From positions 1-64,000 of the forward strand of contig NZ_NQVN01000025.1 in assembly GCF_002770725.1 (NCBI RefSeq): a stretch of 64,000 nucleotides of DNA, in the 5' to 3' direction. Positions 5,551 to 32,186 of the stretch are shown here, one piece after another (within the stretch, counting starts at the first letter, position 1; each line of letters begins with the position of its first letter). The DNA comes from Pleomorphomonas carboxyditropha (lineage in GTDB: Bacteria > Pseudomonadota > Alphaproteobacteria > Rhizobiales > Pleomorphomonadaceae). Under the pieces are notes generated by a model. The model was not told the DNA's origin and ran no database searches. It saw nothing but the letters and a program-made list of their open reading frames with translations. A program made the position numbers and the translations under genes.

Positions 5551-7347
5551 TCATCGGCGGATCCTCACGGCGATGCGCTCTTCGAAGGGAATGGCAACGC
5601 GATAGAGCGTGTCCGGCCAGGCGAGGCGCAGCCGCGCATCGGCGACGGCGATCGCCTCGACCGTGGCCGCGCCGCCGCCGTCGATCTCGATCGCGCCGAG
5701 GCCGGGCAGCACCAGCCCGTCCGCCGCGATGCCCGGACGCCGCGCCAGCATCAGGTGCAGCGTCGAGGGGCCGGCCGGCGACCGCACGTCCTCGATTTCG
5801 ATCCGTTCGCCCTTGACGAAGCGGACGGTGCGGTGCGCCGTCGTCACGCCGGCGGCCGGCGGAAAGGCGCCGGCGAGGTCCATCGACACGCGGCTTTCCC
5901 GCTCGCCCGGCTCGAAGACGAGGTCGCGGGCGCCGTAGGCGGCGCCGTAGCCCTCCTCGACACCGCCGAACAGCGGCAGGTTGTGATAGGCCGACCGGAT
6001 GGTCCAGATCTCGTGACGGGCGGCGGAGAAGGTCTTGGCCGTGTAGGTTTCCACGCCGACGTCGATCAGCAGGGGCTCGCCGTCCCTGAACAGGATCAGC
6101 GAGCCGGCGTCGGCGTGGCCGTGGCTGTCGCCGTTGTCGCCGGCCTTGACGGCGAGGTCGAAGCTGGCGTCGCGCAGGATGAACAGGCCGACGCCGGGAT
6201 AGTGGATGTCCGCCGCAGCGCGCGGCGCGGCCGGGCGGTGGGCGGCGAGCCGTTCGGCGGCGAACGCCGCCTGCAGCCGGTAGTAGAGGTTGATCTCGTC
6301 GGGCAGGTCGCGGTCGGTGGAGACCGCCCAGTCGGCGGCGGCGAAGTCGGCCAGGCGGTCCGAGCCGACGGCGAGGCCGAACAGGTATTCGCGGGCGCCG
6401 GCCCGGCCGGCCAGCGGCGAACAGTCGGCGAAGTTGAAGTAATAGGCGCCGCGCGCGTTGATGTTGACGATATACTCGGCGATGTTGCGGATCTTGTCCG
6501 ACCGGGCGGCCGCGGCGAAGGCGCCGCCGGTGACCTTGTTCAGGATGTCCATGGCGTTGAACAGGCAGAGGCCGGCGTGGCGATAATATTGCGCGCCCTC
6601 CTCGCAGCAGCCGTCGTCCTGGTAGTCCTTGAGGAACGCGTCGAGGCTTTCGGCCGCCTTGACCACCACCCGCCGCCGCAGGTCGGCCGGGTAGTCGCCG
6701 CTCATGATCGCCAGCAGCACGTTCTGGGTGCACCAGACGGTCCAGTTGCACATCGGCTCGTCGCCGTCGCCCATCCACCAGAAATGCCGGCCGAGGTAGG
6801 GGGCGACGATGCGCGCGTCGATTTCGCGGCGGATGCGCGCCCGGATCAGCGGGCTGACGGCGTCGAGCGCGGCGCCGAGCAGGTGGTCGACGACCGCCAG
6901 CTGCGCGCCGGTTTCGCAGGCGAACAGGTCGAGGACCGGCGCGCCGACATCCGGCAGGATGGCCGTCGGCGTGTCGCGGACCAGCGTGTTGTGGGCCGGA
7001 AGCTGCCAGCCGCTTTCCTCGCAGAGGGCGAAGATGCCGTCGATGACCTGGTCGAGAAAGCGGCCGTCGCCGGCCACGCATTCGGCCATGACGGCGGCGT
7101 TGAGGGTCCGCCGCCGCGTGAGGTAGCGCGCCTCGAAGCGGGCGCGGTCGCCGTTGCGGCGGAAATCCATGTAGGCGGAGGCAGCAAGCGGCGGATAGGC
7201 CGCGCCGGCAAGGCTTTCGCCGCGCGCCGTCAGGGCGTCGCGGACGTCGGCCGGCAGGCGAAGCCAGGCCGCACGATCCCGGGCCGGTGGCGCCGGAACG
7301 AAGCGATCGATCGTCCGCGGCAGATCGGCCAGGCATTCGACGAACAT
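5551..7347 (-). CDS. Heparinase II/III-family protein (598 aa)
   Basis: The N-terminal two thirds are an alpha/alpha-toroid (WWMGDGDEPMCNWTVWCTQN and DDGCCEEGAQYYRHAG, both typical of the family). The C-terminal third is the heparinase II/III beta-sandwich, with the conserved NGDSHGHADAGSLILF block. Relatives are polysaccharide lyases acting on uronate-containing polymers. There is no signal peptide, so it probably acts on imported oligosaccharides. I chose the ATG at 7347 because GGGAGA precedes it at good spacing; the upstream in-frame ATG at 7416 lies inside operator sequence. It is divergent from the ABC permease at 7658, with which it shares the GGAAA-rich promoter region. Confidence 0.8.
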   Translation of the reverse strand: MFVECLADLPRTIDRFVPAPPARDRAAWLRLPADVRDALTARGESLAGAAYPPLAASAYMDFRRNGDRARFEARYLTRRRTLNAAVMAECVAGDGRFLDQVIDGIFALCEESGWQLPAHNTLVRDTPTAILPDVGAPVLDLFACETGAQLAVVDHLLGAALDAVSPLIRARIRREIDARIVAPYLGRHFWWMGDGDEPMCNWTVWCTQNVLLAIMSGDYPADLRRRVVVKAAESLDAFLKDYQDDGCCEEGAQYYRHAGLCLFNAMDILNKVTGGAFAAAARSDKIRNIAEYIVNINARGAYYFNFADCSPLAGRAGAREYLFGLAVGSDRLADFAAADWAVSTDRDLPDEINLYYRLQAAFAAERLAAHRPAAPRAAADIHYPGVGLFILRDASFDLAVKAGDNGDSHGHADAGSLILFRDGEPLLIDVGVETYTAKTFSAARHEIWTIRSAYHNLPLFGGVEEGYGAAYGARDLVFEPGERESRVSMDLAGAFPPAAGVTTAHRTVRFVKGERIEIEDVRSPAGPSTLHLMLARRPGIAADGLVLPGLGAIEIDGGGAATVEAIAVADARLRLAWPDTLYRVAIPFEERIAVRIRR

Positions 7348-7408
7348 GATGGTCTCCCGATTGTCATCCGGGCCGGCGGCGGCGCCGGCCGGCGTTCGCA
7401 TCTTTCTA

Positions 7409-7465
7409 TTTTCCATTAGGTGGAAAACACAACGTTTTTGGAAAGATGGAAAATATGCGTATTTT
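7409..7465. promoter_or_regulatory. Operator-like inverted repeats between heparinase gene and ABC permease
   Basis: TTTTCCA-TTAGG-TGGAAAA (7409-7427) is a perfect inverted repeat with the same half-site as 4411-4435. AAAATA-TGCG-TATTTT (7450-7465) follows, with further GGAAA half-sites at 7440 and 7448. The region is well placed to control both divergent genes. Confidence 0.55.
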
Positions 7466-7581
7466 TTCGATTGCGTTTCGACGATTTGTGGAGTTTACAC
7501 TCGTCCGGCCGTCGCGAGAATATCGCGATGTAGGGATCTCCGCCATTCCCAGCATATCCGTCGGGGAGGTGCCACGGACAG

Positions 7582-7610
7582 GCGGAAAGTGGAAATGTTT
7601 GGAAATTTCC
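7582..7610. promoter_or_regulatory. Phased GGAAA repeats ending in palindrome GGAAATTTCC
   Basis: Three GGAAA half-sites at 7583, 7591 and 7601 end in the palindrome GGAAATTTCC (7601-7610), 48 bp ahead of the permease start. They probably form a promoter-proximal operator for the ABC operon. Confidence 0.45.
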
Positions 7611-7657
7611 GCTGACCCGATTGACGAAAAACGGAAAAGATTCCCGGGGAGGAAGCA

Positions 7658-8575
7658 ATGGCGGTCACCGCTCCAGTTCGCAAGCCGCGCCCCATGACGC
7701 CCGCCCGCCGGCGGTTGCGCAACAACGTGGTCGCCTACAGCTTCATCGCTCCGAATTTCATCGGCTTCGCCGTCTTCACGCTCGGGCCGATCCTGTTCGC
7801 CTTCGCGCTCGCCTTCATGGACTGGGACGGCTCGAACGAGATGACGTTCGCCGGCCTCAGGAACTTCTGGCGCCTGTTCTCCGACGACGTGTTCCAGACC
7901 GCGCTCTGGAACACGCTCGTCTACACGGCGCTGACCGTGCCGCTGACGCTGGTCTGCTCGCTGCTTCTGGCGGTGCTGCTCAACCAGAAGGTCTTCGGCC
8001 GCAATTTCTTCCGCACCGTCATGTTCTTCCCCTACGTCGCCTCGCTGGTGGCGGTCGCCGTGGTCTGGAATATGATCTTCAATCCGGCCATGGGCCCGTT
8101 CAACATGCTGCTGGTGGCCTTCGGCCTCGATCCGGCGCATCTGCCCGGCTGGTCGGCCGACAAGAACTGGGCGATGGTCACGGTCATCCTGTTCTCCGTG
8201 TGGAAGAACATGGGCTACTACATGGTGATCTACCTCGCCGGCCTGCAGGGCGTGAATCCCGAGCTCTACGAGGCGGCCGGCATCGACGGCGCCAACGCCT
8301 GGGACAAGTTCCGCCATGTCACCATTCCGCAACTGAGCGCGACGACCTTCTTCGTCAGCATCATGCTGACCATCCAGTGCTTCAAGGTCTTCGACCAGAT
8401 CTACATGCTGACGCAGGGCGGGCCGGGCACGTCGACGCTGGTCCTCGTCTACCACATCTACAACGAAGCCTTCATCTCCTGGGACCTGGGATACGCCAGC
8501 ATGGTCGCCCTCGTCCTGTTCCTGCTCGTTCTCGTCGTCACGGTCGTCCAGTTCCGTCGCGAGCGGGACGCGTGA
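7658..8575 (+). CDS. Carbohydrate ABC transporter permease, MalF type
   Basis: Inner-membrane subunit of a carbohydrate uptake-1 family importer. About six hydrophobic segments begin at residue 30 (FIAPNFIGFAVFTLGPILFA). The cytoplasmic EAA loop that docks on the ATPase is visible as EAAGIDGANAWDKFRHVTIP. Its 305 residues are typical for MalF/UgpA-type subunits lacking the large MalF periplasmic loop. GGGGAGGAAG precedes the start. It is first in the operon with the second permease at 8599, GH88, a heparinase-like protein, the ATPase and the binding protein. Confidence 0.92.
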   Translation: MAVTAPVRKPRPMTPARRRLRNNVVAYSFIAPNFIGFAVFTLGPILFAFALAFMDWDGSNEMTFAGLRNFWRLFSDDVFQTALWNTLVYTALTVPLTLVCSLLLAVLLNQKVFGRNFFRTVMFFPYVASLVAVAVVWNMIFNPAMGPFNMLLVAFGLDPAHLPGWSADKNWAMVTVILFSVWKNMGYYMVIYLAGLQGVNPELYEAAGIDGANAWDKFRHVTIPQLSATTFFVSIMLTIQCFKVFDQIYMLTQGGPGTSTLVLVYHIYNEAFISWDLGYASMVALVLFLLVLVVTVVQFRRERDA

Positions 8576-8598
8576 CGGTTCGGGCCGGAGGAAACGCC

Positions 8599-9435
8599 AT
8601 GAAAATTCTCGGTCGCAAGGTCAAGCCCGCCCGCATCCTCGTCTACGCCATCCTGGTCGCGACGGCGGTGACCATGCTGGTGCCCTTCGTGTGGATGCTG
8701 TCGGCGTCGCTGAAGCTCAGCAAGGACGTGTTCTCCTTCCCGGTGGAGTGGTTCCCCGCCCAGCCGGTGTGGCACAACTACGTCGACATCTGGACCAAGG
8801 TGCCGCTGGCGCTGTTCATCTGGAACACCTCCAAGCTGACCGTCATCGTCACGCTGCTGCAGCTCCTCACTTCGAGCTTCGCCGCCTACGCCTTCGCCAA
8901 GCTCGACTTCAAGTACAAGAACGCGCTGTTCCTCGGTTACATCGGCACCATCGCCATGCCCTGGCAGGTCTACATGGTGCCGCAGTTCATCATGATGCGC
9001 GAGTTCCACCTCAACAACACGCATCTGGCGCTGATCTGCCTGCAGGCCTTCACCGCCTTCGGCGTGTTCCTGATGCGGCAGTTCTACCAGAGCATTCCCG
9101 ACGAGCTCTGCGAGGCCGCCCGCATCGACGGCATGAACGAATACCAGATCTGGTGGAAGATCATGCTGCCGCTGTCCAAGCCGGCGCTGTCGACGCTGAC
9201 GATCTTCACCTTCGTCACCACCTGGAACGACTTCCTCGGGCCGATGATCTACCTCACCAAGACCGAGCTCAAGACGATCCAGATCGGCCTCCGCATGTTC
9301 ATCGCCCAGTATTCGGCCGAATACGGGCTGATCATGGCGGCGTCGGTGGTGACGCTGATCCCCGTGCTCGTCGTCTTCCTCGCCCTGCAACGCTTCTTCG
9401 TCGAAGGCATCGCCTCGAGCGGCCTCAAGGGCTGA
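8599..9435 (+). CDS. Carbohydrate ABC transporter permease, MalG type
   Basis: Second membrane subunit of the importer. It has about six membrane segments, an N-terminal first helix (ILVYAILVATAVTMLVPFVW), and a clear EAA loop, EAARIDGMNEYQIWWKIMLP. The ATG at 8599 follows GGAGGAAA, 24 bp after the stop of the MalF-type gene. Its 278 residues are normal for MalG/UgpE. It should form a heterodimer with the 7658 product and use the ATPase encoded at 12693. Confidence 0.92.
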   Translation: MKILGRKVKPARILVYAILVATAVTMLVPFVWMLSASLKLSKDVFSFPVEWFPAQPVWHNYVDIWTKVPLALFIWNTSKLTVIVTLLQLLTSSFAAYAFAKLDFKYKNALFLGYIGTIAMPWQVYMVPQFIMMREFHLNNTHLALICLQAFTAFGVFLMRQFYQSIPDELCEAARIDGMNEYQIWWKIMLPLSKPALSTLTIFTFVTTWNDFLGPMIYLTKTELKTIQIGLRMFIAQYSAEYGLIMAASVVTLIPVLVVFLALQRFFVEGIASSGLKG

Positions 9436-9454
9436 GCGCAGCGAAAGGACCATC

Positions 9455-10627
9455 ATGACCGCGTGTATTTCGCCGACGATCGATCCGGTGACCGACGACG
9501 AGGTGGCGGCTGCGCTCGACCTCGCCGTCGACCTGGTGCGGCGCAACCTGCCCGAATTCACCCACGCCGCCCGCAATCATTCGAGCGTCGACAATTTCTA
9601 CCCGACCTGCGCCAACGACCAGTGGACCTGCGGCTTCTGGCCGGGCCAGGTCTGGCTCGCCTACGAGCGCTCGCGAGACGAGGCCTTTCTCGACGCCGCC
9701 CGCGTGCAGGTCAGGGACTTCCACCATCGGGTGGAGAACCGCATCGCGGTCGATCATCACGACATGGGTTTCCTCTATTCGCCGAGCTGCGTCGCCGCCT
9801 ACAGGCTGACCGGCGACCGGCTGGCCCGCGCGGCGGCCCTTCTCGCCGCCGACCGGCTGATGGACCGCTTCCAGCCGGTCGGCGGCTTCATTCAGGCATG
9901 GGGCGCCTTCGGGGAGCCGGAGAACTATCGCTTCATCATCGACTGCCTGATGAACCTGCCGCTGCTCTACTGGGCGACCGCCGAGACCGGCGACGGCAGC
10001 TATGCCGACGTCGCCCGCATCCACACCGCCACCTGCCTTGCCAACTCCATCCGGCCGGATTTCTCGACCTATCACACCTTCTTCATGGATCCGGTGACCG
10101 GCCAGCCGTCGCACGGGGCGACCTGCCAGGGCTACAGCGACGATTCGCCGTGGACGCGCGGCCAGGCCTGGAGCATCTACGGCACGGCACTCGCCTACAA
10201 GGTCGACCGCACGGAGGAAAAGCGCCAGCTTTTCGACCGCCTGCTCGGCTTCTACCTGAAGAAGCTGCCCGACGATCTCGTGCCCTACTGGGACCTGATG
10301 TTCACCTCGGGCACCGAGGAGCCCCGCGATTCCTCGAGCGCGTCGATCGTCGCCTGCGGCCTCCTCGAGATGGCGCTCCACGTCGACGAGGCAGCCGCCG
10401 CCGGCTATCGCGACCTGGCCCGGCGCATGGTGGCGAGCCTCGTGCAAACCTATGCCGTCACCGATCCGGCGGTTTCCAACGGCCTGGTGCTGCACGGAAC
10501 CTATTCCAAGAAGACGCCCTTCAACACCTGTACGCCCGAGGGCGTCGACGAGTGCGTCATCTGGGGCGACTATTTCTACATGGAGGCGCTGACGCGCCTG
10601 TCCTCCGACTGGGTTTCCTACTGGTGA
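9455..10627 (+). CDS. Glycoside hydrolase family 88, unsaturated uronyl hydrolase
   Basis: GH88 enzymes remove the 4,5-unsaturated uronate that polysaccharide lyases leave at the non-reducing end of oligosaccharides. The 390-residue (alpha/alpha)6-barrel protein has the two conserved aspartates in DHHDMGFLYSP (D103) and IIDCLMNLPLLYW (D163), plus TRGQAWSIYG. No signal peptide is visible, so the enzyme should be cytoplasmic. It lies 19 bp after the permease and 10 bp before the second heparinase-like gene, so the operon pairs lyase and hydrolase steps. The natural glycan (glycosaminoglycan, alginate-, ulvan- or pectin-like) cannot be told from sequence alone. Confidence 0.88.
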   Translation: MTACISPTIDPVTDDEVAAALDLAVDLVRRNLPEFTHAARNHSSVDNFYPTCANDQWTCGFWPGQVWLAYERSRDEAFLDAARVQVRDFHHRVENRIAVDHHDMGFLYSPSCVAAYRLTGDRLARAAALLAADRLMDRFQPVGGFIQAWGAFGEPENYRFIIDCLMNLPLLYWATAETGDGSYADVARIHTATCLANSIRPDFSTYHTFFMDPVTGQPSHGATCQGYSDDSPWTRGQAWSIYGTALAYKVDRTEEKRQLFDRLLGFYLKKLPDDLVPYWDLMFTSGTEEPRDSSSASIVACGLLEMALHVDEAAAAGYRDLARRMVASLVQTYAVTDPAVSNGLVLHGTYSKKTPFNTCTPEGVDECVIWGDYFYMEALTRLSSDWVSYW

Positions 10628-10637
10628 GGCGTCTATC

Positions 10638-12662
10638 GTGAATCCTCAGGCGTTCTTCGAAGGATCCGACCGTCTGTTCATGCGCGGCGCCGCCGACCGC
10701 GACCGGATCGCCGCCTTCGTGCGCGAGACCTATCCGGACGAGGCGGCCCGCCTCGTCGCCGCCGCCGACATGGTCGTCGCCCAGCGCTTCGTGTTCGAGG
10801 AGCGGTGGGACATGGAGCGCACCCACGTGCCCGAGGTCTTCCCGGGCGAGATCGACTGGCTGCACCAGCCGGGCGACGATCCCGAGTGGATCTTCGCCTT
10901 CAACCGGATGCGCTTCTGGATCACCCTCGGCCGCGCCTATGCGCTGACCGGCGACGAGCGCTACGCCAATGCCTTCGCCGGCCAGCTCGTCCACTGGGTG
11001 CGGACGGTCAGGCGGGACGATCCGGCCAATGCCAAGGCCTGGCGGACCATCGAGGCCGGCATCCGCATGGAATACTGGGTCAAGGCGATGGCCTGCTTCG
11101 AGGGCAGCCCGGCCATCACCCCCGAGGTGATGGACGCCTTCGTCGCCTCGATGACCGAGCACGCCGAATTCCTCATGGGGGTGTGGAACAGCTACAACCT
11201 GATGAGCAACTGGGGCGTTCTCGCCAACCACGGCCTGTTCATCGTCGGCGCCGCCGTGCCGGCCCCGCGCGCCGGCGACTACCGGCGCGAGGCCGCCCGC
11301 CGCCTTGCCGAGGAAGCGCGCATCCAGATCGACGACGACGGCTTCCAGTGGGAGCAGAGCCCGATGTACCACAACGAGGTCACGGCCTGTTACCTCGACG
11401 TGGTGACGCTCGCCGACCGGGGCGGCCACGAGCTGCCGGAGCCGATCCGCCGCAAGACGCGGGACCTTTGCCGCGTCACCGCGCTTTCCGGCAAGCCGGA
11501 CGGCCACGAATTGTCGATGGGCGACAGCGACGACATCGACCAGCGCGACCTGGTGGTGCGCGGCGCCGTGATCTTCTCCGATCCGCTGCTCAGGGCGTTC
11601 GGCGGTCCGGTCATGGACGTCGACGCGGTGTGGGATCTCGGCGCCGACGCCATCGCCGCCTACGCGGCCCTGCCGGCGGAGCCGCCGCGCTCGGCCGATA
11701 CGGCGCTCCACCACTCCGGCAATTTCTACCTCCGCGACCGCTGGGGCGAGGACGGCACCTTCGTGCATTTCCACTGCGGCACGCTCGGCGCCGGCCACGG
11801 CCATTCCGACAAGCTGCATGTCGACCTGTTCGCCCGCGGCGAGGACATCCTCGTCGACGCCGGCCGCTACACCTACGTCGACAAGCCGGAGCGCTTCGAG
11901 TTCAAGAACGCCTCGGCCCACAACACCGTCACAGTCGACGACGAGGAAGTCTACACGCCCGTCGACAGCTGGGGCTGCTCGCGCCTGTCGCGGGCGGTCA
12001 ACCGCCGCTTCGTCGCCGGCGACCGCTACGCCTATGCCGAGGGCGGGCATCTCGGCTATCAGGAGCTCGCCTCGGGCGGCGTGTTCGTCAATCGCCGGCT
12101 GCTGTTCCTGAAGCCGGACATCCTGGTGATCACGGACGAGTTCCACACCGGGGCCGCCCACGCCTACCAGCGCTACTTCCATTTCGACAGCCGCGGCAAG
12201 GTGACCGGCGACGGCCGCCGCTTCGGCTACGACAGCGCGCGCAACGCGGTCGACCTCCTGCTGGTCGGCGGCGAGCCGCACGCGAGGCTCGTCGAGAGCC
12301 GCCTGTCCCGCCGCTACAACGAGGTGGAAGCCAACCTCACGCTGCGCGTCGACGACCGCGGCGACGGCCCGCTCCGCCTCTTCACCGTCATCGGCCTCAA
12401 TCCGGCCGGCCGGCGCGAAGCGCTGTCCGCCGCGACGGTGCCGGTGACCTCGAACTTCAAGGGCGTCCGGTTCGACGATGCGACGATCCACGCCCTCGAC
12501 ATCACCAAGGGGGAACGGGCTTTCACTGTGGTGATCGCCCACCGCGAATACGCGAGCCCCACCGATACCTTCAACGCGGACGGCTGCACCGGCTTCGGCG
12601 AGGTCTCGGTCTTCGACCGCAGCGCCGGCGAAACCAGCGTTGGAACCATTCTCGTCCGGTAA
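10638..12662 (+). CDS. Heparinase II/III-family polysaccharide lyase-like protein (674 aa)
   Basis: It has an N-terminal alpha/alpha-toroid (WLHQPGDDPEWIFAFNRMRF, SYNLMSNWGVLANHG) with the likely catalytic tyrosine in FQWEQSPMYHNEV, and a C-terminal beta-sandwich with GAGHGHSDKLHVDLF and DILVDAGRYTY. The pattern matches Hepar_II_III_N plus Heparinase_II_III architecture and its length. There is no signal peptide. The GTG at 10638 is the most upstream good start; ATG at 10680 is an alternative. It sits in the importer operon directly after GH88 and is only distantly similar to the divergent heparinase-like protein at 5551-7347, so the two probably attack different bonds or chain positions. Confidence 0.85.
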   Translation: MNPQAFFEGSDRLFMRGAADRDRIAAFVRETYPDEAARLVAAADMVVAQRFVFEERWDMERTHVPEVFPGEIDWLHQPGDDPEWIFAFNRMRFWITLGRAYALTGDERYANAFAGQLVHWVRTVRRDDPANAKAWRTIEAGIRMEYWVKAMACFEGSPAITPEVMDAFVASMTEHAEFLMGVWNSYNLMSNWGVLANHGLFIVGAAVPAPRAGDYRREAARRLAEEARIQIDDDGFQWEQSPMYHNEVTACYLDVVTLADRGGHELPEPIRRKTRDLCRVTALSGKPDGHELSMGDSDDIDQRDLVVRGAVIFSDPLLRAFGGPVMDVDAVWDLGADAIAAYAALPAEPPRSADTALHHSGNFYLRDRWGEDGTFVHFHCGTLGAGHGHSDKLHVDLFARGEDILVDAGRYTYVDKPERFEFKNASAHNTVTVDDEEVYTPVDSWGCSRLSRAVNRRFVAGDRYAYAEGGHLGYQELASGGVFVNRRLLFLKPDILVITDEFHTGAAHAYQRYFHFDSRGKVTGDGRRFGYDSARNAVDLLLVGGEPHARLVESRLSRRYNEVEANLTLRVDDRGDGPLRLFTVIGLNPAGRREALSAATVPVTSNFKGVRFDDATIHALDITKGERAFTVVIAHREYASPTDTFNADGCTGFGEVSVFDRSAGETSVGTILVR

Positions 12663-27015: not shown

Positions 27016-27468
27016 ATGCAAACGCCTGTCAGTCCCAGCTTCGAAACCACCCTTCTGGTGCGCGACACCTGCCTGTGCCTGCATGCGCAGCGGGCCGCGC
27101 GGGCGCTCGCCCGCCGGTTCGACGTGGCGCTGAAGCCCGCCGGCATCACCAGCGGGCAGTTCTCGCTGCTCATGTCACTCAACCGGCCGCAGCCGCCGAA
27201 CGTCGGCAGCGTGGCGACGCTCCTGGCGATGGACCGGACGACCTTGACCGCCAACCTCAAGCCGCTGGAGCGCCGTGGCCTCGTCGAGACGGAGGCCGAT
27301 CCCACCGACAAACGCGCCCGCCTGCTGCGGCTGACGCCGGCCGGCCGGGCGGTTCTCGCCGGGGCGGTGCCGATCTGGAAGGCCGTTCACGCCTCGATCG
27401 AAACGGCGCTGTCCAACCCGGATCGTCTGCGCGCCGAGCTGATGGTGCTTTCTGGGCCTGACATTTGA
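27016..27468 (+). CDS. MarR-family transcriptional regulator
   Basis: A 150-residue winged-helix protein: ITSGQFSLLMSLNR leads into the recognition helix (VATLLAMDRTTLTANLKPLE), followed by the wing ETEADPTDKRARLLRLTPAG. Two N-terminal cysteines (RDTCLCLHAQRAARAL) resemble oxidant-sensing members of the family, but no mechanism is shown. It probably represses itself and the divergent VOC-MFS unit through the 26976 palindrome. Confidence 0.88.
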   Translation: MQTPVSPSFETTLLVRDTCLCLHAQRAARALARRFDVALKPAGITSGQFSLLMSLNRPQPPNVGSVATLLAMDRTTLTANLKPLERRGLVETEADPTDKRARLLRLTPAGRAVLAGAVPIWKAVHASIETALSNPDRLRAELMVLSGPDI

Positions 27469-28251
27469 GACCCGCCGTGGCGCATCCGCGAACGGTGGCC
27501 AATGACGAGAGGTCTCGCACGTAAGCCGCTGAAATTTATGGTGAAATTGGCGATCTACGCCGGGCGATGATGAGAACTACGTCTATGCTACAGCCTTTAA
27601 GCCATTTTGGCGTCCGCACTGTGGGTTTCAGCACATCGACCGAGCTCAGCATGTGCGCAATTCGGCCAGGAAATATCTAAACCGCACTCGATTGGGTCAT
27701 GGACATGGTCTGAAATCGGCCGGGAGCGGAATGGCGGGTTTGAGAGACGAGAGCCGTAAAGCGGCCGTTCGCGCGCCACATATTCAGAACTGCTACCGAC
27801 CCACGCCGGACATTGGGAAGCGTCGTGGCAAATAACGGCTCCATAGCCTGTGGCAGTCGTTCGAGCCAAGCACAGCAAGCGCCTGGGACCAGCCCAAAGC
27901 CTCCAATCACGCAATGCTCCACGGTGTGTCGCTAAGCATGTAAAAATGATATCCTGCAATCATGCACAATGTCGGTCCTTGTCTTCCGCGCAGCGGATAA
28001 AGGGGTGGCCGCGTAGATACTACTTTTTGCAGACGCTGCAGCGCGAAAGTCCGGATCGTCAAGGCTACTTTGTCCTGTTGCCAATCGGGGTTATAAAGTC
28101 AAAAAAGAGTACCCAGAACTTATATTGGATGAGGCAGGCTAGAAATTAATCTTCTTCAGGAGTAACTTCAGAAAATTACTAGCCATCTACTCACCGTGAC
28201 GCCGATGTGGTATCGCGCCGACATTTTTTCCGTAGAGGAGACCGCATCATA
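27469..28251. other. Gene-poor boundary of the accessory island
   Basis: This 783-bp stretch has visibly lower GC than the genes to its left and no convincing gene. Frames on both strands at 27597-27959 lack ribosome sites and have no recognisable domain. A short coding-like tail, NRGYKVKKEYPELILDEAG, ends at 28142 and may be the 3' remnant of a lost gene. I found no integrase and no copy of the tRNA-Arg 3' end here. Confidence 0.5.
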
Positions 28252-29592
28252 ATGGTGGCGGCTGGCGGTTACATACTCCCTGTACCCTCGGCTCGAAGGG
28301 ACCTGCTTCTGCAAGAAGCCGAACACGGTGGGTCCTTCTACCGCTCGAAGCCCTTTGTGTCGGAACCTGTTCCCCGCTTCGACCACAGCCGCCGCGCGCC
28401 TCTTGCCGTCTTCGCCTCGTTCGAGGACGGCTACATCACACACATTGCCGAAGGGAGGAAAGGTCAGTCTGCAGGCACCGGCCTCGTTCGGCTCAATCTG
28501 GAAGAGCTCGAGTCTCTGAAGCGGCCCGTGAGCTTCGATGAGATCCTTGCTGGCATCGACATACGCGTTGCCCGGCACGTCAGGCAGCGCCTGGAAACAG
28601 GCGGCCTGCTCCCGCCGAAGTCGCTCGGCGCCTTTGTCGATCGTATCACGCAACTCGATGAGACCGTCAGCCCACGTCTTGCACGCTATTCCGAGCGTCG
28701 CGCCCAAGCGCTACGGCGGCTCCAGCCCCGTGCCCGCGAAAACCTCGCCTACCAGAAGGAGGCACTCGGCCTCGCACTCGAGATTGCTGGCATATCGCGA
28801 GACGACCTTTTGGGGTGGACCCCGACGGACGCTTTACAGCAATCCTTCCTCGACGGACTGTCGGGCGCACAGGTTCGGGAAGACGTTATGCTTTTGTCAG
28901 ACTTCTCGACGGTGCCGGGCTTTGAAGCTGTGGGCGAAACCACCCACTACGGTTCAAAGGTATTCGCGAGCGAAGAGGATTCGTCGAAAAGGTTGACGGT
29001 GATCATGGCTAACCGTCTGCCCCTCGAACAACAAACTGGCGCCGATCTCATCTACTTCAACGAAGCTTACCGCAGTTTCGTGATGGTCCAATACAAGGCA
29101 ATGGAGAAGCGCGAAGACGAAGTGGAATTTCGTTGGCAGGCGAAGGATCAGTTCTGCGACGAAGTTGAGCGGATGGAGGCCCTGCTGGAGGCGATCAGGA
29201 AGCTCCCAAGCGGCGAACACCCTGACGGGTTCCGTTTCTCGGACAACCCGTTCTTCCTGAAATTCTGTCCGCGCGTTGTCTTCAACCCCGACGACAAAGG
29301 GCTCTTCAAGGGTATCTATCTGCCTCTCGATTTATGGAAGCGGGCGGATGCCGCTGGTCTATTCACGGGGCCGCGCGGCGGCAAAGTTCTGACCTTCAGG
29401 AACGTCGGTCGTCGAATCAACAATTCGGAGTTTGTCGGGCTCGTGGCCGGATCGTGGGTAGGCACGTCGATAGAGCAATCCGCTGTGCTCAGCGAGATTG
29501 TTCGGCAGGTGCTGGAAACCGGGAAGACCGTCACGATCGCCATCAAGCACACCCCGCCTCCTCATGCGTCCGAAATGGAGGCCGCTGAATGA
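28252..29592 (+). CDS. Putative PD-(D/E)XK-like protein, first gene of a two-gene candidate defence module
   Basis: I do not recognise a named family for this 446-residue protein. Residues about 262-282 read TGADLIYFNEAYRSFVMVQYK, one residue longer than quoted in motif form: G-x-D265 ... V-x-Q280-x-K282. This matches the core of PD-(D/E)XK nucleases such as Holliday-junction resolvase-like and restriction-type enzymes. The N-terminal 200 residues are helical and charged. I chose the ATG at 28252 (AGGAG 11 bases upstream); a GTG at 28207 is possible. Its TGA overlaps the next ATG (ATGA), so the two proteins are probably made in fixed ratio. Base composition is lower in GC than the flanking core genes. 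Confidence 0.6.
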   Translation: MVAAGGYILPVPSARRDLLLQEAEHGGSFYRSKPFVSEPVPRFDHSRRAPLAVFASFEDGYITHIAEGRKGQSAGTGLVRLNLEELESLKRPVSFDEILAGIDIRVARHVRQRLETGGLLPPKSLGAFVDRITQLDETVSPRLARYSERRAQALRRLQPRARENLAYQKEALGLALEIAGISRDDLLGWTPTDALQQSFLDGLSGAQVREDVMLLSDFSTVPGFEAVGETTHYGSKVFASEEDSSKRLTVIMANRLPLEQQTGADLIYFNEAYRSFVMVQYKAMEKREDEVEFRWQAKDQFCDEVERMEALLEAIRKLPSGEHPDGFRFSDNPFFLKFCPRVVFNPDDKGLFKGIYLPLDLWKRADAAGLFTGPRGGKVLTFRNVGRRINNSEFVGLVAGSWVGTSIEQSAVLSEIVRQVLETGKTVTIAIKHTPPPHASEMEAAE

Positions 29593-31244
29593 GCAATACC
29601 CAGAAGCTTTCCATTCGCCTCTTGCGAGATGGCCTCGCCCCCGCTGACGCAGTGCGCGACGGTGTAGACCTAACACCATGGGACAAGCTGGAAGGCGCAC
29701 TCATTTCATTGGCAACGCTCGGCGGCGGCGCGCCGAAATGGGCGGGCTTTCTCGAACTGTCAGAAGACGAGAAGAAGAAGGTCTTCAACCACACGGCCTT
29801 CGGACTCGTGTTCGTCCAGGCGTCCGGGCGCTGGTTCGCGGTGTCTTTTGGCATGGGTCATGTCAAGCTTGATCCTGCAGCGTTCGAGCAGGATTTTGGG
29901 CTGCGGGTTGTCCTCAACGCCGTTGATCCGAAGCAGTTAAAAAGCGCGGACGTTCGGACACCGGATGAGAATACGCTATCCCGCCGTACGCAGACCAGCA
30001 GGGGCTCCGATCAGACTGCCTTTGCCATCGACATCGAGCGCGACCTTGTCCGTGGACTGGCTGGGACGCCCAAGGATGCAGGCTTCGGCTCCTATGTGGC
30101 GGGGACCGACGGCCTGACGCTCAACCGAAAGCTTGAGATCGCGGAGCTCGCCCAGGCCTGTGCGGATGCGTATGCAATCTACCAGAAGACCGACTACAAG
30201 ACCGACTTCGGTTGGATCGACCAGATTCGCCACATCCGTGAGCAAGAATTGATCGACAAGTTGGACGCCAAGCTGGTCGAAGCTTTGGCGAAGGCGGTTG
30301 ACGAAGGCGAGACCGACGGTATTCACCTCGCCTTTCCGGTCATCTATGACCCTGAGAAATCAAGCCTCATCCGCTACAAGGGGTTTCGCAGCTGGCAGCT
30401 TTATGCCGACCTCGACTTGCCCGGTTACCTCGACGCATTGAAGGAGCGCGAGAAAGCCGGCTACTCGGACGAGGACCTCCGCAATCACACCGTCCACGAA
30501 GTCGATGATGATGGCCACGACTGTGGTGGGAAATGGAAGTTGCGGGAATGCATAGTGTTCGAAACAGAACTCGATGGCTCGACCTACGTCTTCTCTGGAG
30601 GCCGCTGGTACCAGATCGACCAGAACCTCGCCAAAGAGGTACAGGAGTTTTTCGACGCGACAAGCAAGGTCGACATGCCTGCCGCTGAGGCTGACGAGAC
30701 AGAAGAGACCTACAACAAGCGCGTCGCCGGTCTGGATGCGGACATGATCTGCTTAGACCGTCGGCTCATCAAGCCGACAGGTGCTGCGAGCAAGATCGAA
30801 GCCTGCGACTTTCTCGGCCGTGAGCGTCAACTGATCCACGTTAAGGACAAGACGTCCTCGTCTCGACTCAGTCACCTTTTTAGCCAGGGGACCGTCTCCG
30901 CACGCGTCCTCGCGACCGACCCGCCGTCGCGCGACAGCGTTCGGAACGAAGTGATCGCGGTCCAGGCTGAAACCGGACAGAGCGGCTACGAGGACATCAT
31001 CCCGAATTCTGGGAATGACTTCACCCGTGGCGATTTCACCGTCGTCTACAGCGTCATTGCTGCATCGGATAAGCCGAAACTTCCCTTCTTCAGCTTGGTG
31101 TCGTTCCGCCAGGCTGCGCGCGAATTGCATGCTCTCGGCTACAAATGGGCTTTCGCCTGGATCGAGAAGCCAAAGTCTGGCGCGAAGGCGAAAGCCAAAC
31201 GATCCGCGAAGGGTGCTGGAGAAGATGCGGAGCTCATAGAATGA
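29589..31244 (+). CDS. TIGR04141/DUF6119-family sporadically distributed protein
   Basis: A 551-residue protein, near the usual length of the family. The recognisable block is residues about 403-434: IEACDFLG, then LIHVKDKTSSSRLSHLFSQG. The acidic residues (E404, D407) before H-V-K419 look like a degenerate nuclease core. Members occur patchily across bacteria, often in islands, and their biochemical role is not established to my knowledge. It is translationally coupled (ATGA) to the upstream PD-(D/E)XK-like gene and lies 340 bp from the 3' end of a tRNA-Arg. The C-terminus is Lys/Ala-rich. A role in defence against foreign DNA is inference from context. Confidence 0.7.
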   Translation: MSNTQKLSIRLLRDGLAPADAVRDGVDLTPWDKLEGALISLATLGGGAPKWAGFLELSEDEKKKVFNHTAFGLVFVQASGRWFAVSFGMGHVKLDPAAFEQDFGLRVVLNAVDPKQLKSADVRTPDENTLSRRTQTSRGSDQTAFAIDIERDLVRGLAGTPKDAGFGSYVAGTDGLTLNRKLEIAELAQACADAYAIYQKTDYKTDFGWIDQIRHIREQELIDKLDAKLVEALAKAVDEGETDGIHLAFPVIYDPEKSSLIRYKGFRSWQLYADLDLPGYLDALKEREKAGYSDEDLRNHTVHEVDDDGHDCGGKWKLRECIVFETELDGSTYVFSGGRWYQIDQNLAKEVQEFFDATSKVDMPAAEADETEETYNKRVAGLDADMICLDRRLIKPTGAASKIEACDFLGRERQLIHVKDKTSSSRLSHLFSQGTVSARVLATDPPSRDSVRNEVIAVQAETGQSGYEDIIPNSGNDFTRGDFTVVYSVIAASDKPKLPFFSLVSFRQAARELHALGYKWAFAWIEKPKSGAKAKAKRSAKGAGEDAELIE

Positions 31245-31584
31245 CCGCAAGCCCGAAATTCTAGCTCTCTGAAGCTGGCTGGAGCGAATATTCTTAGAGC
31301 GTCAACTTGCTGCGGATCGGCAACCTTCCAGTCAGTTACAGTTAACGTCCGGATTCAAGTGACGTAGATGGTACCATGAACGTCGGCCTTGGGGGCGCAA
31401 AGCTGCCATTCCAAGCCACCACGCGACATTTTCGTGGGTGCAAGCAATCGACCGCAAGCGATACGAACTTTTCGCCGCCGAACGCAGCCGCTTCTACGCT
31501 TTCCTGCATAGGAGCTACATCTGCCAGATTCAACAGCGTACATTCGGCGGCTATAGCGCGCTGTGGGAGGCAATCGGCGGAATT
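31245..31584. other. Gap between the island genes and tRNA-Arg
   Basis: About 340 bp without a supported gene. One frame (roughly 31363-31613) encodes a coding-like peptide that includes YELFAAERSRFYAFLHRSYI, but it has no start codon and runs into the tRNA. It could be the 3' remnant of a mobile-element gene. No terminator is obvious. Confidence 0.4.
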
Positions 31585-31661
31585 TGGCGCACCCGACAGG
31601 ATTCGAACCTGTGACCTCTGCCTTCGGAGGGCAGCACTCTATCCAGCTGAGCTACGGGTGC
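31585..31661 (-). tRNA. tRNA-Arg (anticodon CCG)
   Basis: A complete cloverleaf can be folded on the minus strand: acceptor GCACCCG pairs with CGGGTGC, the D-arm contains GCTCAGCTGGATAGAG, the anticodon loop is CTCCGAA giving CCG, the T-loop is TTCGAATC, and CCA is encoded. Its 3' end faces the accessory island, the usual orientation for integration at a tRNA. Confidence 0.95.
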
Positions 31662-31859: not shown

Positions 31860-32186
31860 TCAGTTGCCGACGGGCACTTCGACGAAGGCGCTGTCGGCCG
31901 GCTCCCACATGCGGATGGTGGTGGTGCCGGTCTTCACCGCGTCGTGCGTGGCGATGACCGGCGTGGCGGCGACCTTGGTCGTCACGAAGGCGCTGTCGGC
32001 CGGATCCCAGTAGGTGACGGTCTCGGTGTAGCGCGCCGAATCGTTGTTGGCGGTCGCCGGGGCCTGCATCGAACCGGTGACAAAGGCGCTGTCGGCCGGA
32101 TCCCAATAGGTCTGCTCGGCGGCGGAGGCCAGGCTCGGAAGGGCGATGGCGGTGACAGCAACGACGGCAAGAGCTAAGGTTTTCAT
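31860..32186 (-). CDS. Small secreted protein with three WDPADSAFV repeats
   Basis: A 108-residue protein with a clear Sec signal peptide (residues 1-22, cleavage after ASA). The mature 86 residues contain three copies of the motif W-(D/E)-P-A-D-S-A-F-V at about residues 29, 60 and 94, separated by variable Thr/Ala-rich linkers. CGGAG precedes the ATG at good spacing and a strong terminator follows, so it is a well-expressed single gene. I know no function for this motif. Export to the periplasm or outside the cell is likely, and the repeat may bind a ligand or surface. Confidence 0.8.
   Translation of the reverse strand: MKTLALAVVAVTAIALPSLASAAEQTYWDPADSAFVTGSMQAPATANNDSARYTETVTYWDPADSAFVTTKVAATPVIATHDAVKTGTTTIRMWEPADSAFVEVPVGN

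Follow-up and report, generated by a model that had tools for sequence, protein, structure and literature searches.

Two overlapping genes residing in a 64,000-nt stretch of Pleomorphomonas carboxyditropha DNA (contig NZ_NQVN01000025.1, positions 1 to 64,000; this whole stretch is called the window) are probably a small add-on defence module, because relatives of the first gene are part of, or adjacent to, a wide variety of anti-phage systems. Gene 1 may encode a type IV-like modification-sensing nuclease, in which an N-terminal EVE/YTH-like domain would recognise a modified base of incoming DNA, leaving the cut to a PD-(D/E)XK-like domain. Gene 2, a DUF6119/TIGR04141 protein, would be its co-translated partner, either an accessory subunit or a second nuclease, drawn from type I restriction operons. 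Classical restriction and BREX systems target unmodified DNA, and the cassette would complement systems of this sort by covering their blind spot. This reading is rated at slightly better than even (roughly 0.55). Its computed basis is made up by the N-terminal fold, motif invariance, defence contexts, operon origin and purifying selection; what we infer is that a base is recognised, that the target is DNA rather than RNA, that it is cleaved and that gene 2 cooperates. The pair has the following components:

28252-29592, + strand: gene 1, 446 aa, with an EVE/YTH-like N-terminal domain, a helical middle and a predicted PD-(D/E)XK-like C-terminal half
29589-31244, + strand: gene 2, 551 aa, DUF6119/TIGR04141 by profile match
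29589-29592, + strand: ATGA start/stop overlap of gene 1 and gene 2
28252-28689, + strand: gene 1 residues 1-146, PUA-superfamily (EVE/YTH/ASCH) fold in an AlphaFold2 model
28990-29271, + strand: gene 1 residues 247-340, putative core with E259, G-x-D265 and Q280-x-K282, from alignment, model secondary structure and profile register
30702-30887, + strand: gene 2 residues 372-433, invariant cluster in the alignment, its PD-(D/E)XK-like spacing judged by eye

Both open reading frames (ORFs) are present and open. The start of gene 1 was placed at the ATG at 28252, where homology with near relatives begins; the frame is also opened by an upstream GTG at 28207. An earlier note on this DNA had reported the ATGA overlap, a low GC content and a bordering tRNA-Arg, and all three are real. 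The pair has a GC content of 58.9% (vs. 66.4% in the window), and 8 of 245 same-size windows are equally low.

At 18 of 30 gene 1 loci (loci of relatives are given as L plus a number), recognisable defence genes are part of the locus or neighbour it, two of the cases being weak. Type I restriction-modification genes are found in L005, L006, L011, L012 and L030. L008 has an EcoRII-like type II enzyme together with a cytosine methylase, and helicases accompany a type III methyltransferase in L014 and a type IIG enzyme in L027. Gabija occurs in L022 and L028, the plasmid record L043 being an additional Gabija case. In L016, L017, L019, L020, L021 and L024 gene 1 sits within rows of BREX genes including BrxC. 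The weaker cases are L018 (methyltransferase and helicase) and L026 (Ppl-like). Many gene 1 relatives share loci with methyltransferases of other systems. L017, L020 and L021 are near-identical, and the six BREX cases are therefore not independent; still, BrxC was detected in 8 of 200 sampled genomes only, at one place each and partial in three of the eight, hence a chance association with BrxC in 6 of 30 loci is not credible. In BREX operons gene 1 follows HerA or BrxC and precedes a PglX-like gene. The defence neighbours come from scans of a chosen set of neighbouring genes, and from BLAST against these, rather than from covering every ORF; PglX, Vsr and some hsd names were assigned by eye, and some ORF choices are mechanical. 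No defence gene was recognised in the other 12 loci among the neighbours examined, which were scanned incompletely. A housekeeping operon, the setting that the earlier note took as evidence against a defence role, was not seen among the gene 1 neighbours scanned. The defence association proposed in that note is well supported by these loci, as by the finding of hsdM and hsdR in 7 of the 19 examined loci where DUF6119 occurs and gene 1 does not (6 on plasmids, 13 in genomes).

Further genes recur next to gene 1. In four loci (L022:7276-9141, L023:1639-3504, L029:8053-9918, L043:6016-7935) it is preceded by a 621-aa protein that weakly resembles HATPases; L022 and L043 continue with Gabija genes, which were not found in L023 and L029. 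A resolvase/recombinase gene is located directly 3' of gene 1 at L012:11442, L030:11438 and L031:736. In L017, SIR2-like and HerA genes (6491-7861 and 7858-9990) separate BrxC from gene 1.

No model in Pfam, PADLOC or NCBIfam matched gene 1. In the AlphaFold2 model, residues 1-146 adopt a PUA-like EVE/YTH/ASCH fold, and the modelled N-terminus has the shape of proteins that read chemical modifications on DNA or RNA bases. The 50 best rows listed by the VIA structure comparison are all PUA-superfamily chains, matching residues 1-188 at most. Forty-seven are YTH, ASCH, VcaM4I or THYN1 chains, VcaM4I being among the best matches; the other three (1zce, 2ar1, 2gbs) carry uninformative titles, and we take them to be EVE chains. 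YTH and ASCH chains are as close to gene 1 as EVE chains, within one Z unit. The list spans mainly residues 1-141, and is uninformative on a nuclease match elsewhere. With a viral structure library a single row fell below E 0.001, that of an uncharacterised protein of 132 aa; UL24 rows were weak (E about 0.18) and were not used. The earlier note had spotted neither this domain nor the hsdR remnant described below, nor that both families occur in defence contexts.

The C-terminal half of gene 1 is a probable PD-(D/E)XK-like nuclease, as judged from the motif, the secondary structure of the model and two weak registered profile alignments. Residues E259, D265, Q280 and K282 are invariant in 28 aligned rows (the window and 27 of the 30 loci; L007, L020 and L031 were left out), the last three having been correctly numbered in the earlier note, and residues 247-340 show the core order strand-strand-strand-helix-strand in the AlphaFold2 model. 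G-x-D..Q-x-K is retained in four of five further homologues. The fifth, L033:7488-8978, kept Q, lost D and K, and adjoins an intact paralogue (9923-11236) in which both are kept. The motif falls in register with YhcG_C, 1 of 150 block-shuffled profiles scoring as high, and with Mrr_cat (7 of 150), and not with SduA_C; these three profiles barely align mutually, except YhcG_C with SduA_C. Modelled alone and without alignment, the C-terminal half reached a pLDDT of 36. The PD-(D/E)XK assignment made in the earlier note is supported by the motif, the model secondary structure and the weak register and not by a fold match, the structure matches being confined to the N-terminal part. A lax Pfam scan of the 28 rows and a PHROGs scan gave scattered weak matches only, among them YhcG_C in 1 of 28.

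Gene 2 belongs to DUF6119 (E 4e-154, 514.5 bits with a cut-off of 27, profile positions 1-524 of 524) and to TIGR04141 (E 6.5e-133, 443.9 bits with a cut-off of 35, positions 45-516 of 516), as the earlier note had recognized. Residues E372, D390, E404, D407, K419 and Q433 are invariant in 22 of 22 rows, and C406, H417 and H429 nearly so. The invariant residues, three of which (E404, D407, K419) had already been pointed out, could form a candidate PD-(D/E)XK site; they are suggestive of the nuclease role assigned to gene 2 in the earlier note, which is unproven, profile comparison having added nothing to it. No meaningful profile alignment was obtained with Mrr_cat, YhcG_C or SduA_C, gene 1 and gene 2 do not resemble each other by profile comparison, and beyond DUF6119 a lax Pfam scan of the 22 rows gave scattered weak matches only, among them Endonuc_Holl in 1 of 22. 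In the family searches as a whole, PDB sequences offered no convincing relative (best E 0.022).

The association of the two genes is optional, not fixed. A DUF6119 gene is adjacent in 7 of the 30 gene 1 loci, six times in tandem and once divergently (L013, where the DUF6119 protein is 22% identical). Both genes reside in one plasmid record, gene 2 in 30 and gene 1 in 10 (surroundings were inspected for 7 of the 30 gene 2 places and 2 of the 10 gene 1 places). Among 398 Pseudomonadota genomes DUF6119 was found in 11, gene 1 in 4 (at most 4 candidates scored per genome), and both in the window's own genome only. The fixed-ratio coupling supposed in the earlier note does not hold as a general rule. 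In the absence of gene 1, DUF6119 genes lie directly between hsdS and hsdR in L037, L038, L039, L061 and L068, with a SprT/YgjP-type metallopeptidase gene after hsdR; the remaining 12 of the 19 DUF6119 loci had no match to the defence query set. The metallopeptidase recurs beside hsdR in L005, L006, L011, L037, L038, L039, L060, L061 and L068. A viral reservoir for the pair was considered and rejected: no relative was confirmed in viral contigs for gene 1, gene 2 or relatives of the latter, a weak evidence given the short seeds, and gene 1 had no match in phage records, where gene 2 was not searched.

The window pair is a remnant freed from an hsdS-gene 1-gene 2-hsdR operon. L005, L006 and L011 share one arrangement: hsdM, DUF4357 gene, hsdS, gene 1, gene 2, hsdR, metallopeptidase. 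The 34 bases past gene 2 in the window match the hsdR start of these operons (E 4e-5), and are interrupted by an in-frame stop, from which we conclude that the copy in the window came out of an operon of this kind:

31241-31278, + strand: hsdR start remnant (ATG, then in-frame TAG), by comparison with L005

Of the first 40 bases, 33 are identical to the L005 hsdR start. No hsdM, hsdS or hsdR domain was found among the 10 flanking window ORFs scanned. Pairs without hsd genes also occur in L007 (a 3.7-kb contig), L008 (with a type II system 0.6 kb off), L009 and plasmid L036. Neither tree unites these pairs and the window copy in a single group, so freeing from the operon probably happened more than once. 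The window copy and L005 are joined in the concatenated tree (support 1.0), and not in the gene 2 tree with outgroups, a conflict which suggests that recombination has perhaps blurred this history. Comparisons among hsd-less copies (L008 vs. L009 and L036) gave dN/dS values of 0.09-0.11 for gene 1 and 0.08-0.10 for gene 2; hsd-less pairs elsewhere are under purifying selection. Between the window and L005 the values are 0.11 and 0.04, part of this divergence possibly predating the loss of hsd genes.

Other readings of the pair were weighed. In a bolder and tentative form of the reading given above, gene 1 would be a portable nuclease sensing base modifications, plugged into type I, II, III and IIG restriction-modification, BREX and Gabija loci as a general backup against phages that escape these systems by modifying their own DNA, DUF6119 a new class of co-operating effector or nuclease whose home includes the hsdS-hsdR junction, and the two-gene form a new system working alone. 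It is unlikely that the pair is instead a toxin kept silent while the restriction, BREX or Gabija system of the host works, and killing the infected cell once a phage inhibitor disables that system. The anticodon nuclease PrrC acts so inside a type I system, and the tight translational coupling within hsdS-gene 1-gene 2-hsdR, as well as the position of gene 1 within BREX operons (the PglX-like gene by eye), would suit such a role. Yet hsd-less copies persist under purifying selection, although L008 has the nearby type II system, and the occurrence of one family in unrelated systems is hard to reconcile with the sensing of one complex.

Improbable to a similar degree is an RNA-targeting defence, in which the PUA-like domain would bind RNA, possibly modified, and the C-terminal half would cleave RNA and lead to abortive infection. 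The equal closeness of YTH, ASCH and EVE chains to gene 1 would fit, and YTH domains are described as mostly RNA readers (PMC7897488, PMC7641849); locus partners, however, are mostly DNA-restriction systems, and VcaM4I, the sole reader-nuclease among the top rows, is reported to act on DNA (PMC7897488). Less probable still is that, following the loss of hsdM, hsdS and hsdR, both genes are drifting in this genome without a role. The decay of the hsdR start and the lack of DNA methyltransferases among the 10 flanking ORFs scanned would agree with drift, but both ORFs are intact, and the low window-L005 dN/dS values speak against it, with the proviso on older divergence made above.

The modification-sensing nuclease proposed here has known counterparts. 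The fold of the gene 1 N-terminus is shared with VcaM4I, an EVE-HNH modification-dependent endonuclease of type IV, whose EVE domain is reported to flip 5mC/5hmC into a pocket (PMC7897488). VcaM4I differs in carrying an HNH nuclease in place of a PD-(D/E)XK-like half, and its chain in the PDB has 303 residues vs. the 446 aa of gene 1. We know of no DUF6119 gene coupled to VcaM4I. In silico work has described fusions of YTH-like and DCD domains to PD(D/E)XK nucleases (PMC7641849), an EVE-like reader joined to PD(D/E)XK being the same kind of architecture as that predicted for gene 1; BREX and Gabija, both contexts of gene 1, are not mentioned in the main text of that paper. With its EVE/YTH-like reader and PD-(D/E)XK-like half, gene 1 would be laid out as modification-dependent endonucleases are. 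A BREX island holding the type IV enzyme BrxU is reported to give complementary protection (PMC8565348), a type IV function beside BREX as proposed for gene 1; BrxU is of the GmrSD family, whereas gene 1 relatives lie inside BREX rows in six loci, and also occur with restriction-modification and Gabija. No description of gene 1 was found among the papers listed on DUF6119/TIGR04141, EVE domains, accessory genes, and BREX with type IV enzymes, and the names DUF6119/TIGR04141 gave a sole match, unrelated by title, in the full text of 5.39 million open papers. Gene 1 represents a new and so far unannotated family, of a kind already known; its partner in the window belongs to a family without stated function. 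The analysis provides a testable function for an unnamed protein family that keeps company with several anti-phage systems unrelated to one another, and places DUF6119/TIGR04141 in a functional context for the first time. If the reading is true, restriction-modification, BREX and Gabija loci would all draw on one reader-nuclease family as a common add-on against phage DNA that is modified.

The surroundings of the pair in the window were compared with the 13 other genus genomes, at 21 scored candidates each, and two features mark its borders:

27462-31445, strand unassigned: stretch covered by none of the 13 other genus genomes, among the matches listed
31585-31661, - strand: tRNA-Arg (CCG), right-hand border

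Matches of most genus genomes resume at 31573-31584, beside the tRNA-Arg 3' end. Both flanks are listed in 9 of the 13 genomes, and are apart in all nine, either on different contigs or separated by 3.3 Mb (genome G012). The locus is therefore a junction of foreign DNA or a rearrangement, and the simple picture of an insert at a site common to the genus is not supported. A 108-aa protein with no Pfam match, encoded beyond the tRNA gene at 31863-32186 (- strand), has by eye a signal-like start and three W-x-P-A-D-S-A-F-V-like repeats.
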